This document shows positions 9,439-63,734 of a stretch of 64,000 nt of DNA, piece by piece; within the stretch, counting starts at the first letter, position 1; the number at the start of each line of letters is the position of its first letter. Under the pieces are notes generated by a model. It did not search any database and was not told the DNA's origin. It saw nothing but the letters and a program-made list of their open reading frames with translations. A program made the translations under genes and the position numbers. Source of the DNA: Pontibacter indicus (lineage in GTDB: Bacteria > Bacteroidota > Bacteroidia > Cytophagales > Hymenobacteraceae); assembly GCF_900156345.1 (NCBI RefSeq), contig NZ_FTPP01000003.1, positions 186,001 to 250,000 on the forward strand. Direction: 5' to 3'.

Positions 9439-10173
9439 ACTAAACTCTTGCTCGCGCTAGGTATAGCGCAAACGTCCGCACTCGTGTCTACTATCGTGGG
9501 GCCTCTGGCCCCGTTGGCGGGTATAGGTATAGCTGGCATTTAGTATACCACTGTGCCCTCGCTCGCGTCCCGCGAGTGTGAGCTAGCGGGCGGACTCTGG
9601 CCGCTGGTGCATAGTACCGGTATACTTGTATCTGGTGTAGTTGCAGGTATAGCAACCGGTCTTGTTTCATAGCTTGCCCTAGCCGGGCGGGCTGCTGTTT
9701 CGCCTGTGCGGCGGGCACTCACTTTTTGTCTTGACACAAAAAGTAAGCAAAAAAGTCAAGACCCTCCAAATCGAGGGCCCCTACCCCCACTCGCTGACCG
9801 CTCGAACAGTGGAGTGTCATTTGGTGCACCTGGCACCGCTAGCTGTTTTATAGTTCGAGTGCAAGTTAGTCTTACTATACCTGCCAGTGGTTTTTGTGGT
9901 CTTTGTTGCAGTGCTTATACCTTGAATTGGCAGCAGCAGAAAGTCCCACTTGGGGGTAGGGTCCCTCGACAAAGAAGGGGGCAGGGGGATGTTAATCGTG
10001 CACAAGAATCCTGAAAATTCTGATTCTGACAACTGCTCCCGCATAGCAAACAAGACACTCGTAGGTCTAAAGACGCTGCGAGGTCTATGCACCACCACTG
10101 GCTATCTATAATATCTCTCCTGTTTTGGGTGTAAGGCTCTCAAAAAAAGGAGGGTAGAGGGATTACAGATAAA
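9439..10173. repeat. Composite intergenic repeat, copy A (inverted relative to B and C)
   Basis: Bases 9661-9836 are the reverse complement of the cores at 55678-55808 and 63487-63617. They include the 9-base-arm hairpin ACTTTTTGT-N6-ACAAAAAGT. The homology continues to about 10003 with a GTGCACGATT end module and CCCTGCCCCCTTCTTTGTCGA. It continues on the other side with a CGTGGGGCCTCTGG module near 9496. Relative to B and C this copy has two insertions in its core, one of which repeats the CGAGGGxCCCTACCCCCA module present elsewhere in the element. Short open frames in it (containing FCLDTKSKQKSQD) are probably not genes. Confidence 0.8.
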
Positions 10174-21306: not shown

Positions 21307-24243
21307 ATGCAAAAACGTATACTTTCTGTCGCGCTGCTGGTGGCCCTGAGCGGGGGCGCTGTGCAGGCACAGAAGAAAGCACCCAAGCAGCCGGCCTACA
21401 CACCCGCCAAAGAAAGGCTGCAGGCATTCGAGAAGCGCCAGCAACTCGACCAGAACTCCCTTGTCAGAAACGTGGCCTTCCGAAACGTAGGCCCTACTGT
21501 GCAAAGCGGTCGCATCACCGACCTGGATGTAAACCCGAAGGACCCGACTGTTTTCTACGCAGCCTATGCCTCAGGCGGTCTTTGGAGAACCGCCAACAAC
21601 GGCATTTCCTTTGAGCCACTCTTCGATAACGAGGCGGTGATGACGATCGGCGACATTGCCGTGGACTGGAACAACGGCGAGACCATCTGGATCGGCACCG
21701 GCGAGAGCAACTCCAGCCGCTCTTCTTACTCCGGCGTGGGCGTGTACAAGAGCACCGACGGAGGCAAGACCTGGCAGCACATGGGCCTCGACGACACGCA
21801 CCACATCGGTCGCATCGTCCTCCACCCGACCGACCCGAACACGCTTTGGGTAGCGGCGGTGGGGCACCTGTACTCGCCCAACAAAGATCGCGGCGTGTAC
21901 AAAACGACCGATGGCGGCAAGACCTGGAAGAAAACCCTCTTCATCGATGATAATACCGGCGCCATTGACCTGGTGATCGACCCGAAGAACCCGAACAACG
22001 TGTACGCGGCCATGTGGCACCGCGAGCGCCGTGCCTGGGACTTTGTGGAGGGCGGCAAGACCTCCGGCGTCCATAAGTCAACGGACGGCGGCAACACCTG
22101 GACCCGCGTGACCACTGAAGGCAGCGGCTTCCCAACTTCAGAAGGCGTAGGCCGTATCGGTCTCGACATTCACCCGGGCAACCCGAACATCCTCTACGCT
22201 TTCCTGGACAACCAGGAACTGCGTCCGATAGAGAAGAAGGCACCAAAAGCCGGCGAGCTGCAGAAAGACCAGTTCAAAGGCATGAGCACAGAGGCTTTCC
22301 TGGCCCTCAACGATAAGGCGCTGAATGAATTCCTCGACAACAATCGTTTTCCTTCTAAATACTCTGCCAAATCGGTGAAGGCAGATGTGAAGAGCGGCAA
22401 GCTCAAACCTGCTGCCCTGGCCGAGTACCTTGAGGACCCGCTGGCGGTGACCACCGAAGCTCCGGTGAAAGGCGCTGAACTGTACCGTTCCGACGACGGC
22501 GGCAAATCCTGGAAGAAAACGCACGAGCAGCCGATCGACGACATGTACTCGAGCTACGGCTACTACTTTGGCGTAGTGCGCGTGGCGCCGCACAACCCGG
22601 ACAAGGTATACCTGCTGGGCGTGCCGCTCCTGACTTCCGATGACGGGGGCAAGACTTTCCGCAACATCGAGGGCGAGAACGTGCACTCCGACCACCAGGC
22701 CCTGTGGGTGAGTCCCGACAAACCCGGCTATGTCATCAACGGCAACGACGGTGGTCTGAACATCACCTACGACGATGGCAAGACCTGGGCAATTGCCAAC
22801 TCGCCTTCTGTGGGCCAGTTCTACGCCATTGCCGTGGACATGGAGAAGCCTTATAACATCTATGGTGGTCTGCAGGACAACGGTACCTGGTATGGCCCGA
22901 GCAACTACAAGGCCAGCGCCGCCTGGACGCAGAACGGCCGCTATCCGTACCAGCGCATTGGCGGTGGCGACGGCATGATGGTGCAGATCGATACTCGCGA
23001 CAACAACACGGTATACCTGGGTTCGCAATACGGCAACTACACCCGCCTGAACAAGCGCACCGGGGAACGTACTTCGATCAAACCAACACACGAGTTGGGT
23101 GAGCGTCCGCTGCGTTTCAACTGGGAAAGCCCGATTCACCTGAGCCGCCACAACCAGGATATCCTGTACTTCGGCTCCAACAAGTTTCACCGCTCCATGA
23201 AGCGTGGCGAGGAGATGCAGACCCTCTCCGGCGACCTGACCAACGGCGGCCTGAGAGGCGACGTGGGCTTCGGAACCCTGACCTCCATTGACGAGTCGCC
23301 GCTGAAGTTTGGCCTGCTCTACACCGGCTCCGACGATGGCACGATCCACGTGTCGAAAGACGGCGGGTATAACTGGGAAAACATCTCTAAGAAGCTGCCA
23401 CAAAACATGTGGGTATCAACGGTAGTGGCCTCTAACCACAGCGAGAACCGCATCTATACCTCCCTGAACGGTTACCGCTGGGATGACTTCACGCCATACC
23501 TGTACGTGTCGGAAGACAACGGCAAGAAATGGGAGCGCCTGGGCACCAACCTGCCTGCCGAAGCCATCAACGTGGTGAAAGAAGATCCGAAGAACCCGAA
23601 CCTGCTCTACGTGGGCACGGATCATGGTCTGTATATCTCGCTCGACAAAGGCAAGTCCTTCATGCAGATGCGCAACGGCATGCCGGCCGTAGCCGTGCAC
23701 GACCTGGTGGTACATCCGCGCGAAAATGACCTGGTGGTAGGCACGCATGGCCGCTCCATCTACATCGCCAATGTGGAGCAGCTGCAGCAGCTCACGCCGG
23801 AGATTCAGAACCAGAAACTGCACCTGTTCGCTTTCAATCCAGTGCAGTACAGCCCACGTTGGGGACAGAAGTGGGGCGCCTGGGGCGAGCCGATGGAGTC
23901 CACACTGGATATTCCGTTCTATACCGCTCAGGCCGGCACCACGACCATCCGCATCAAGACCGACAAAGGGCAGGTGCTGAAAGAGCTCAAAGACGAGAAC
24001 GAGCGCGGCCTGAACTTCGTGCGCTACAACTTCTCGGTGGACGAGGCGAATACCAAAGCCTACGAAGCTGCACTGAACAGCGGCAAGAAAGATGGTGAGG
24101 AAGCGGTAAAAGTAACAGCCGCCGATAACAAGGTGATCTACCTGCAGCCAGGCAAGTACACAGTAGAAGTTGAAACCGCCGATGGCGGCAAGGCTACTTC
24201 TGAGTTTACCCTGAAGGCGCCGGAAAGAAGAACCAGAAGCTAA
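21307..24243 (+). CDS. Exported Asp-box (BNR/sortilin-like) beta-propeller protein, copy 1
   Basis: The 978-residue protein has a signal peptide (MQKRILSVALLVALSGGAVQAQ) and about nine Asp-box motifs of the S-x-D-x-G-x-T-W type. Examples are STDGGKTWQH, TTDGGKTWKK, STDGGNTWTR, SDDGGKSWKK, SKDGGYNWEN and SEDNGKKWER. These make one or two beta-propellers of the sialidase/VPS10-sortilin kind. Such proteins are often annotated as glycosyl hydrolases, but I see no catalytic residues that prove this. The last 130 residues form a beta-rich C-terminal domain without a T9SS sorting motif, so it is probably periplasmic. A paralog is encoded at 28717-31902. Confidence 0.85.
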   Translation: MQKRILSVALLVALSGGAVQAQKKAPKQPAYTPAKERLQAFEKRQQLDQNSLVRNVAFRNVGPTVQSGRITDLDVNPKDPTVFYAAYASGGLWRTANNGISFEPLFDNEAVMTIGDIAVDWNNGETIWIGTGESNSSRSSYSGVGVYKSTDGGKTWQHMGLDDTHHIGRIVLHPTDPNTLWVAAVGHLYSPNKDRGVYKTTDGGKTWKKTLFIDDNTGAIDLVIDPKNPNNVYAAMWHRERRAWDFVEGGKTSGVHKSTDGGNTWTRVTTEGSGFPTSEGVGRIGLDIHPGNPNILYAFLDNQELRPIEKKAPKAGELQKDQFKGMSTEAFLALNDKALNEFLDNNRFPSKYSAKSVKADVKSGKLKPAALAEYLEDPLAVTTEAPVKGAELYRSDDGGKSWKKTHEQPIDDMYSSYGYYFGVVRVAPHNPDKVYLLGVPLLTSDDGGKTFRNIEGENVHSDHQALWVSPDKPGYVINGNDGGLNITYDDGKTWAIANSPSVGQFYAIAVDMEKPYNIYGGLQDNGTWYGPSNYKASAAWTQNGRYPYQRIGGGDGMMVQIDTRDNNTVYLGSQYGNYTRLNKRTGERTSIKPTHELGERPLRFNWESPIHLSRHNQDILYFGSNKFHRSMKRGEEMQTLSGDLTNGGLRGDVGFGTLTSIDESPLKFGLLYTGSDDGTIHVSKDGGYNWENISKKLPQNMWVSTVVASNHSENRIYTSLNGYRWDDFTPYLYVSEDNGKKWERLGTNLPAEAINVVKEDPKNPNLLYVGTDHGLYISLDKGKSFMQMRNGMPAVAVHDLVVHPRENDLVVGTHGRSIYIANVEQLQQLTPEIQNQKLHLFAFNPVQYSPRWGQKWGAWGEPMESTLDIPFYTAQAGTTTIRIKTDKGQVLKELKDENERGLNFVRYNFSVDEANTKAYEAALNSGKKDGEEAVKVTAADNKVIYLQPGKYTVEVETADGGKATSEFTLKAPERRTRS

Positions 24244-40294: not shown

Positions 40295-40332
40295 GAAGGC
40301 CCGCAGTTGTGAAACTGTGGGCCTTCTTTGTT
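40295..40332 (+). terminator. Terminator hairpin; left copy of an island-flanking direct repeat
   Basis: GAAGGCCCGCAGTT/AACTGTGGGCCTTC with loop GTGA, then TTTGTT. The 38 bases are nearly identical to 51925-51963 in the same orientation, with one indel and two substitutions that keep the stem paired. It terminates the barrel operon. Confidence 0.85.
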
Positions 40333-51924: not shown

Positions 51925-51963
51925 GAACGGCCCGCAGTTGTGAAGCTGCGGGCCTTCTTTGTT
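51925..51963 (-). terminator. Terminator hairpin; right copy of the island-flanking direct repeat
   Basis: GGCCCGCAG/CTGCGGGCC with loop TTGTGAAG ends 25 bases before the purE stop. The 39 bases match 40295-40332 in direct orientation. For purE the T-rich side lies on the wrong side of the stem, so termination of purE may not be its original purpose. Confidence 0.75.
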
Positions 51964-55427: not shown

Positions 55428-55808
55428 GTGCACGATTGTCATCCCCTGCCCCTTCTTTGTCGAGCCCCCTACCCCCATCTGTAGTTACCTGTTCACAGGT
55501 ACAGCTTCGTAGTTGAAGCAGTTTGGCACTCCCACTGGTTGAACACACCCCTGCCCCTCTCAAGAGGGGAATTCTAGCTACTACCAAACTACAAGCACAA
55601 GCTTCGTTGCTCTTGTTACAACCCCTTGGCACGCATTGAAAGACATCCTTGCCCCGGAAGCGATGAAACAGGTAGCTGTGCCAGGTGCACCAAATGACAC
55701 TCCACTGTTTGAGCGTTCAGCGAGTTTGGAGGGTCTTGACTTTTTTGCCTACTTTTTGTGTCAAGACAAAAAGTAGGGCCCGCCCGGCCAGGGCAAGCTA
55801 TGAAACAA
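55428..55808 (+). repeat. Composite intergenic repeat, copy B
   Basis: It starts with GTGCACGATT and a CCTTCTTTGTCGA module and ends with the 131-base core at 55678-55808. The core runs from GTGCCAGGTGCAC to GGGCAAGCTATGAAACAAG and includes a hairpin with 9-base arms at 55751-55774. GTCTTGAC also occurs twice as an inverted pair. Copies A (inverted) and C share these modules with different insertions. It lies between MarC copy 2 and hemE. Frames in it containing AYFLCQDKK are probably spurious. Confidence 0.82.
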
Positions 55809-63323: not shown

Positions 63324-63617
63324 AGGATTTTCAGGATTAAAGGATTAACAGGATTTTCGTGCACGATTGGCGCCCATCAAGAGTAGGGTTTTGACACTTC
63401 CAGTTTACAGGTATAAGCTTCGTAGTCACAGACCACTGGCAGGTATAGCAAGGCTAACTTGCACGCTGACAATGAAACATAAGGTGGTGCCAGGTGCACT
63501 AAATGACACTCCACTGTTCGAGCGGTCAGCGAGTTTGGAGGGTCTTGACTTTTTTGCTTACTTTTTGTGTCAAGACAAAAAGTGAGGCCCGCCCGGCCAG
63601 GGCAAGCTATAAAACAG
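63324..63617 (+). repeat. Composite intergenic repeat, copy C, preceded by AGGATT micro-array
   Basis: Four AGGATT words with 8-9 base period (63324, 63333, 63341, 63350) lead into GTGCACGATT at 63359. The core at 63487-63617 is about 90% identical to copy B by eye. The intermediate part AAGCTTCGTAG-N-CCACTGGCAGGTATAG is shared with the reverse complement of copy A. Downstream, ACCAGAGGCCCCACGA at about 63671 also occurs inverted near copy A. Confidence 0.82.
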
Positions 63618-63734
63618 CTTAACTTAAGGTATAGGAAGGCTGAAGCTATGCAAGATATAGTTATATCTAGACCAGAGGCCCCACGAACGTAGACGTTCGC
63701 GCCATTTTATTTATACCTATACCTCCGAAAACAA

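Follow-up and report, generated by a model that had tools for sequence, protein, structure and literature searches.

A dispersed Bacteroidota repeat with a conserved RNA pseudoknot fold and a predicted triple helix

What kind of element is the modular intergenic repeat that occurs three times within the 64,000-nt stretch of the Pontibacter indicus genome analysed here (the window)? From the letters alone it had been taken for either a mobile miniature element or a structured RNA, built around a shared hairpin core with swapped flanking modules. Sequence comparison located the three copies where they had been predicted, copy A on the minus strand and copies B and C on the plus strand (Table 1). 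B and C share 91% identity over 145 nt, and A matches both in inverted pieces at 86–92%. The hairpin of the repeat core is real, with an arm of 12 bp instead of the nine bases originally assigned to it, and constitutes one half of a pseudoknot. All flanking modules named at the outset were recovered: GTGCACGATT at A, B and C, CTTTGTCGA at A and B (and once more at 23642), and the GGCC palindrome, or CCAGAGGCCCCACGA, at A and C. The same holds for the extra blocks of copy A, comprising a 19-nt unit and a second GCCCGCCCGG block, the latter representing a doubled pseudoknot 2. The repeat is no coincidence: the 131-nt core of copy B yielded 42 BLAST matches at 40 places of the genome (the best 40 of 65 candidates). 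As copy A stood outside this list and was seen via the orthologous-locus search, the genome holds at least 41 copies and not, as the original prediction had named as its undoing, those of the window alone. Besides the repeat, the window contains two 35-nt terminator-like hairpins (GGCCCGCAGTTGTGAA...TTCTTTGTT; 40298–40332 and 51929–51963), 94% identical and 11.6 kb apart.

Table 1. Positions of the three repeat copies, their structural parts and adjoining modules in the window
Feature	Position	Strand	Basis
Copy A RNA core (closing stem, pseudoknot 1 and pseudoknot 2; split by the 19-nt unit)	9700–9818	−	sequence; aligned to B and C; core hit by blastn in L303
Copy A, 5′ strand of the closing stem GACACTCC, pairing with GGAGGGTC at 9760–9767	9811–9818	−	covarying helix 1
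19-nt unit TGGGGGTAGGGGCCCTCGA in the closing-stem domain of copy A	9771–9789	−	missing there in B and C; inserted in L008, L026, L039 and G014/G009 loci
Copy A linker L1, TTTTTTG, predicted third strand of the triple helix	9748–9754	−	linker rule
Copy A stem S2, 12 bp, with 6-nt loop GTCAAG	9718–9747	−	covarying helix 3
Copy A pseudoknot 2 (TGC/GCA and CGCC/GGCG)	9700–9717	−	covarying helices 4 and 5
Additional block of copy A, resembling a second pseudoknot 2 of GCCC/GGGC type (GCCCGCCCGG block)	9672–9692	−	sequence, alignment
Copy B RNA core	55696–55795	+	sequence, BLAST, alignment
Copy B TTGAC, pairing with loop GTCAA at 55760–55764	55736–55740	+	covarying helix 2, columns 48–68
Copy B linker L1, TTTTTTG	55741–55747	+	linker rule
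Copy B stem S2 (12 bp) and loop	55748–55777	+	covariation, RNAalifold
Copy B pseudoknot 2 (GCC/GGC and GCCC/GGGC)	55778–55794	+	covarying helices 4 and 5
Copy C RNA core	63505–63604	+	sequence, BLAST, alignment
Copy C linker L1, TTTTTTG	63550–63556	+	linker rule
Copy C stem S2 (12 bp) and loop	63557–63586	+	covariation, RNAalifold
Copy C pseudoknot 2	63587–63603	+	covariation
REP-like module GGGCCTCTGGCCC beside copy A	9499–9511	+	also as CCAGAGGCCCCACGA at 63672–63686 beside copy C
GTGCACGATT, piece of another repeat, beside copy B	55428–55437	+	others at 63359 (+), 9994 (−) and 16157 (+)

We aligned 45 copies out of 51 Pontibacter loci (alignment A2; L008, L026, L050, L039, L023 and L048 were left out) and used them to test a structure of 32 pairs containing two pseudoknots. 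The closing stem, GACGCTCC/GGAGCGTC, covaries to GACGATTTT/AAAATTGTC-like and GATTACCC/GGGGAATC forms (L041, L019), and one of its pairs (columns 6–40) is broken in 22 of the 45 copies, mostly as A·G. Pseudoknot 1 (S1) is formed by TTGAN (UUGAN) pairing with the loop NTCAA (NUCAA) of the 12-bp hairpin S2. Its N-N pair (columns 48–68) is C-G in 28 copies, U-A in 16 and U-G in one, and the remaining four pairs are invariant. Changes on both sides were observed for six pairs of S2, and pseudoknot 2 switches between TGC/GCA with CGCC/GGCG and GCC/GGC with GCCC/GGGC. The fraction of paired cells was 97.6% as compared to 86.6% after shuffling, with 138 double-changed cells instead of 46. Double-sided changes that keep pairing occurred at 16 of the 32 pairs, where the shuffled mean was 10.2 and none of 500 shuffles reached as high, and the pairing score collapsed once the partners were slid by 1–3 columns. 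The count of further pair types (23, as against 21.0 shuffled) did not exceed the control in this alignment. Because the copies are related by descent, these shuffle counts are not to be read as probabilities. RNAalifold, which cannot draw pseudoknots, recovered the nested stems. G·U cells outnumbered A·C cells by 26 to 3, with 19 of the 26 located at a single pair, suggesting that the drawn strand functions in single-stranded form, RNA being the simplest case.

A second alignment of 62 sequences (A4), which admitted only rows with U- and A-runs of 3 or more, was confined to the knot core. It contained 176 double-changed cells as compared to 45 in shuffles, with no excess for double-change pairs (7 vs 7.0) or pair types (18 vs 18.8). 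The S2 covariation in this set was selected for, as complementarity of 6–7 bp in S2 had been demanded at parsing, and the four other S1 pairs give no support, being both invariant and required by the search. Pairing of N48-N68 and of L1 with S2b had not been demanded beyond the run length of A4; N48-N68 is paired in 61 of the 62 cores (UA 33, CG 16, AU 12, other 1). Relaxing the demand for CTTGA/TCAAG in viral contigs gave 20 stretches, 18 of them already matched by the CTTGA/TCAAG pattern, which tests S1 only narrowly since the linker and the A-run were fixed in the pattern; the other two stretches (L413, L414) look unrelated. The covariation test proposed with the original prediction revealed covariation in the Pontibacter copies as well as in the knot cores.

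The U-rich linker between TTGAN and the hairpin follows a simple rule. Public contigs were scanned with a pattern that put no constraint on the linker, after which a hairpin stem of at least 7 bp was required, resulting in 152 distinct linker/stem pairs among the matches listed, after removal of very short fragments and of rows containing a second, nested start. In 145 of these 152 the U-run of the linker is as long as the A-run of the stem, where 10,000 shuffles gave a mean of 73.2 and a maximum of 92. The equal runs comprise 3 pairs of length 3, 97 of 4, 33 of 5, 11 of 6 and one of 0. The rule also extends to composition: in the first position of the register, U lies opposite a stem A in 47 cases and C in two, and a stem G has C across from it in 9 of 9 cases. 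The example of L131 is particularly clear, with TTTCTTTTG lying opposite AAAGAAAAG and the lone C exactly across from the lone G, and in-register C/G swaps are also seen in L040, L058 and L095. For the raw pattern in viral contigs the chance level is not small, as the reversed pattern matched 39 stretches and the real one 76; stem and linker rule together separate real from chance matches. The rule held for none of the 39 reversed matches, for 32 of 81 in viral contigs and for 119 of 136 in genome contigs, where the pattern scan gave at least 119 stretches, 80 of them named. Equal run lengths together with C opposite G in register lead us to predict a U•A-U/C+•G-C major-groove triple helix at S2, and linker polarity and register fit a third strand that occupies the deep groove, parallel to the purine strand. 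Two features of the H-type triple-helix class are found, namely upstream pairing of the loop, through N48-N68, and co-variation of third strand and stem. The full 5-bp S1 and the triple may not coexist, because the single nucleotide G73 links the S1 loop strand to S2.

The fold is not restricted to the genus. The Pontibacter core covariance model gave matches in at least 24 of 296 genomes of the phylum, and a 39-position knot model (A4/R2) in at least 106 of 395 genomes and at least 53 of 171 genera, with at least 16 scored matches in the richest genome; among the candidates scored, 289 of the 395 genomes yielded no knot. Within the genus, at least 17 of 24 sister species contain a core match, and for 7 of the 24 there was none among the candidates scored. 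Hosts among the matches listed include Pedobacter, Mucilaginibacter, Flavobacterium, Chryseobacterium, Parabacteroides, Cellulophaga, Fodinibius, Arcicella and Cardinium in addition to further Pontibacter records, and a few matches come from records labelled as other phyla, e.g. Propionigenium maris DSM 9537 (L237), where the linker rule holds. Some phage-like contigs carry two to four knot copies. Copy B (601 nt) had no match among plasmids and one full-form element none among phage records; another full-form element matched plasmids partially at two places, with no annotated feature there. Taken together, the fold, the strand and the breadth of the element family are well supported. In a set of phage-like contigs with related genes (L097, L139, L148, L153, L126, L131, L095), knots lie between genes at differing positions.

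In many hosts the knot forms the 3′ end of a longer element. Full-form candidates, 41 in all, were picked for having G[G/A]CCT at the 5′ end plus an apical motif, and we compared their first three bases with the three preceding TTGA: these ends are GGC/GCC in 30 cases, GAC/GTC in 5, GGC/GTC in one and unpaired in 5. Folding of the 36 sequences selected for pairing ends, each against 60 shuffles, resulted in rods closed by exactly the end pair in 34, with a mean z of −4.5 and z < −3 in 28; for five of the 36 (z −0.9 to +0.8) folding was no better than for shuffles. Single-sequence folding was used here since a 21-sequence MAFFT alignment of the full form is not structure-aware and therefore did not enter the pair counts. 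The apical TGYYTGA...GAGTT module was present in 64 of 188 distinct elements with enough upstream sequence, and in 55 of these 64 it is flanked by a stem of 6 bp or more (mean of 6.9 and maximum of 15 after shuffling). Elements without the module have different 5′ parts. The rod of the full form comprises stacked stems and an apical UGUUUGAG...CGAGUU module, with asymmetric internal loops, about GCGTTAAG across from TAGC, recurring by eye. Pontibacter copies have a short stem instead and look like a shortened rod with an added second pseudoknot. An autonomous version with an open reading frame in the apical loop was not seen among 208 elements inspected over as much as 4 kb of upstream sequence. 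In 102 of them an apex could not be recognised; the flanking stem was shorter than 8 bp in 53 and 8 bp or longer in the remaining 53, whose apical segment spanned 19–89 nt apart from a single value of 262 nt, which we judged a chance match.

We compared the three window loci in 30 of 31 genomes each, with a match to the more distant flanking gene in 21, 29 and 18 of 30. At these orthologous sites some sister species have the element, which was not found in others. In another Pontibacter genome (G014), 12 of 22 fetched copies share both flanks with one of the 40 own loci. In the genus g70, two copy loci of G201 were looked up by a single flank in 7 sisters, matching in 3 and 4 of them, and an exact knot search at these matched sites found none. 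The search for empty sites suggested at the outset led to G092, in which the flanks adjoin without the element at both loci, with a possible duplication of about 10 bp seen only by eye; in G076 and G064 remnants remain at one of the two loci, likewise by eye. This presence and absence at orthologous sites supports a scatter of the element. Copies also occur in clusters and in tandem arrays with one knot per unit, the units measuring about 381–386 bp and 325–333 bp (L162 in G118:C7 and L417 in G133:C1). Clustering of 704 neighbouring proteins (the best 14 clusters) did not yield a shared partner, the largest cluster covering 6 of 165 loci, all in viral contigs; by eye, the biggest clusters were taken to be phage genes and one 5-locus cluster a sugar-nucleotide dehydratase. 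As separate observations, the knots of one genome (G308, L158) lie among surface-sugar genes according to Pfam, and the neighbours at L070, L206, L221, L249, L253 and L416 (G106) resemble sugar-nucleotide or sugar-cluster genes by eye.

The idea of swapped modules survived for the core and less so for the flanks. Helix types differ as blocks between the copies, which makes some module swapping real, whereas the flanking modules look mostly like independent repeat families sharing the same intergenic spots. For the CCAGAGGCCCCACGA module, the ortholog of locus C in a sister species (G016:C2, L364) points to a likely identity: the place of the element is taken by a Y1-transposase gene of RAYT type, its open frame 187 aa long, with inverted copies of a palindromic GGGGCCAGAGGCCCC...CGCTCGCGCCAT unit, to which CCAGAGGCCCCACGA belongs, on either side. 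The module is therefore probably a REP-type repeat, namely the REP of the L364 Y1 gene, and perhaps of the kind reported for the TnpA-REP/RAYT Bacteroidetes subclass 2.6, to which the excerpts available of PMC6006769 ascribe "atypical secondary structures". The 19-nt unit TGGGGGTAGGGGCCCTCGA, a very small and mobile-looking repeat in its own right, is inserted at differing points inside knots (L008, L026, L039 and the G014/G009 loci), with a related sequence, GGGGGTAGGG, at 9952 and 55467. GTGCACGATT is part of a further repeat. Near the elements, the hexamer GGTATA/TATACC is common by eye in runs of varying copy number (own L046 and L051, and other intergenic gaps). In practical terms, the element would account for some of the confusing "modular" intergenic repeats in these genomes.

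Based on these data, we assign a probability of roughly one half to the reading that the repeat is a dispersed, non-autonomous element selected through its RNA fold. Of the two natures initially offered, the structured RNA is strongly supported by covariation and the linker/stem rule, a scatter of copies is supported by presence and absence at orthologous sites, and the element may be both. The sequences show that the 5′ G[G/A]C pairs with G[C/T]C just ahead of UUGA and closes the rod, and that the 3′ part is the UUGAN-NUCAA pseudoknot, its U-rich linker matching the hairpin A-run in length and in U/C composition. The element seems to lack a promoter of its own, as the flanks vary between copies, and would be transcribed from outside; the folded RNA would be what a trans-acting partner recognises, and copies would spread without any gene of their own. 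Small REP-type units and the 19-nt unit pile up at the same intergenic sites and add to the modular look. Several observations weigh against this reading: no mobilising protein, given the small neighbour clusters, no terminal inverted repeats in the 21 copies of g70 and no ORF-bearing version were seen, about half of the elements inspected having no recognisable apex; most of S1 is invariant, some covariation measures and a few rods were no better than controls, and most G·U cells sit at one pair; and whole helix types differ between species at orthologous sites, which could reflect gene conversion. The latter point can be quantified for Pontibacter, where 11 of 18 comparisons were parsed and, of 61 changed pairs, 47 showed a pairing-preserving change in both partners, 5 a change in one partner that preserved pairing, and 9 had broken; the blockwise nature of these helix differences suggests conversion or re-insertion as well as selection for pairing. 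Only tentatively, and as a clearly less probable proposition than the RNA-selected element as such, do we go further and envisage a phylum-wide, gene-less nomadic RNA whose triple-helix-pseudoknot fold would be its sole heritable machinery, hijacking a widespread cellular or phage enzyme (e.g. an RNA 3′-end enzyme or a reverse transcriptase) and spreading through chromosomes and phages.

The 47 double-sided changes would suit an RNA that serves the host, i.e. a 3′-UTR stabiliser, a processing site or a small RNA family multiplied by duplication and gene conversion and not selfish, in which the triple helix would protect or position transcripts. Conservation of the fold across phylum-wide divergence, the tandem arrays with units of about 325–333 bp and the arrangement in the own genome, where 16 of 34 intergenic copies have a co-oriented upstream and an opposed downstream gene, are in line with it. 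On the other hand, orientation is not fixed (22/22/20/20 among the 84 intergenic copies with both neighbours called, out of 128 parsed in named genomes), many copies are broken by insertions, and the element is not generally essential, judged by the sister species and genomes without a match among the candidates scored, rendering a host function possible but rather doubtful. The same 84 copies bear on a cis-acting leader, a riboswitch or attenuator controlling the genes that follow it: co-oriented downstream genes number 42 and opposed ones 42, and no large cluster of shared neighbour proteins turned up, so that such a role is disfavoured and appears highly improbable to us, despite the four copies in G308 located 81–243 nt upstream of co-oriented ORFs. 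A MITE- or REP-like miniature element moved by a DNA transposase, with hairpins acting as DNA and the RNA fold as a by-product, would account for the dispersed, intergenic, multi-copy occurrence, for the G092 sites without the element and for the GGCAGGTATA-like and inverted GCTATACCTG-like pieces found on both sides of 11 of the 40 own copies. We nevertheless regard it as unlikely, since G·U is tolerated over A·C (mostly, as noted, at one pair) and since neither terminal inverted repeats, as sought in g70, nor a link to Y1 genes was found. Terminal inverted repeats, suspected by eye at L432, were absent from all 21 copies in genus g70, and the right-hand piece at L432 looks like part of a second, decayed and inverted copy. 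Y1 genes, the family that was scanned, do not track copy number: G005, G009, G010 and G014 have many element copies and no Y1 match, G011, G012 and G013, with no element among the candidates scored, have 5, 8 and 7 Y1 matches, and none of 20 Y1 loci of the genus carries a knot within 1.5 kb. We thus rejected RAYT as mobiliser of the knot and retained it for the CCAGAGGCCCCACGA module.

If the family reading holds, Bacteroidota harbour a widespread dispersed element, often in many copies per genome, and with it a predicted bacterial triple-helix RNA of which many natural variants are available for testing. An immediate question would then be how an RNA element without genes is mobilised or maintained throughout a phylum and its phages.

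The family is apparently undescribed so far. Rfam 15 gave no match in the window; in six Pontibacter-genus loci (E up to 5) it returned a true SRP RNA in L037 and otherwise weak matches, none on the element, and in eight loci of the distant form (E up to 1) two weak matches in L224, both outside the element. Among BOX and ERIC repeats, which are short, modular, palindromic, intergenic and present in many copies, the resemblance is evident in each of these properties; unlike these repeats, which are not known beyond a few genera, the fold described here occurs in at least 53 of 171 genera. The ωRNA (reRNA) of IS200/IS605 and HEARO are mobile-element RNAs with a pseudoknot, in which a scaffold lies beside a variable flank. 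The element appears to differ from them in lacking an Rfam match and in neighbour clusters of at most 6 of 165 loci. Among the papers listed from PMC full text, none was recognised as describing the element, and the excerpts of the papers on the F. psychrophilum Rfp RNA, on REPs and on the Cardinium MITE hold no description of this fold. RAYT REPtrons, according to the sections available of PMC6006769, are likewise dispersed intergenic structured repeats of Bacteroidota, and REP-type modules adjoin copies A and C; unlike them, the copy number of the element does not follow Y1, and the G·U bias and the linker rule point to RNA. MITECca01 of Cardinium is similar in being a small non-coding repeat in a Bacteroidota genome, described in the accessible portions of PMC9769881 as IS982-derived, bearing terminal inverted repeats and reported from one strain. 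The element fails the tested defining features of both RAYT repeats and MITEs.

In structural terms the affinities lie elsewhere. Telomerase RNA, SAM-II and preQ1-II, members of the triple-helix class, act with a ligand or a protein and are not known as dispersed repeats; the element differs from them by a loop that is almost fully paired, by the upstream rod and by its many copies. The nearest structural class, as far as the available descriptions of SAM-V go, is nonetheless that of the triple-helix pseudoknots, with which the element shares a hairpin loop paired upstream, a U-rich linker running along an A·U stem and the predicted U•A-U triples.
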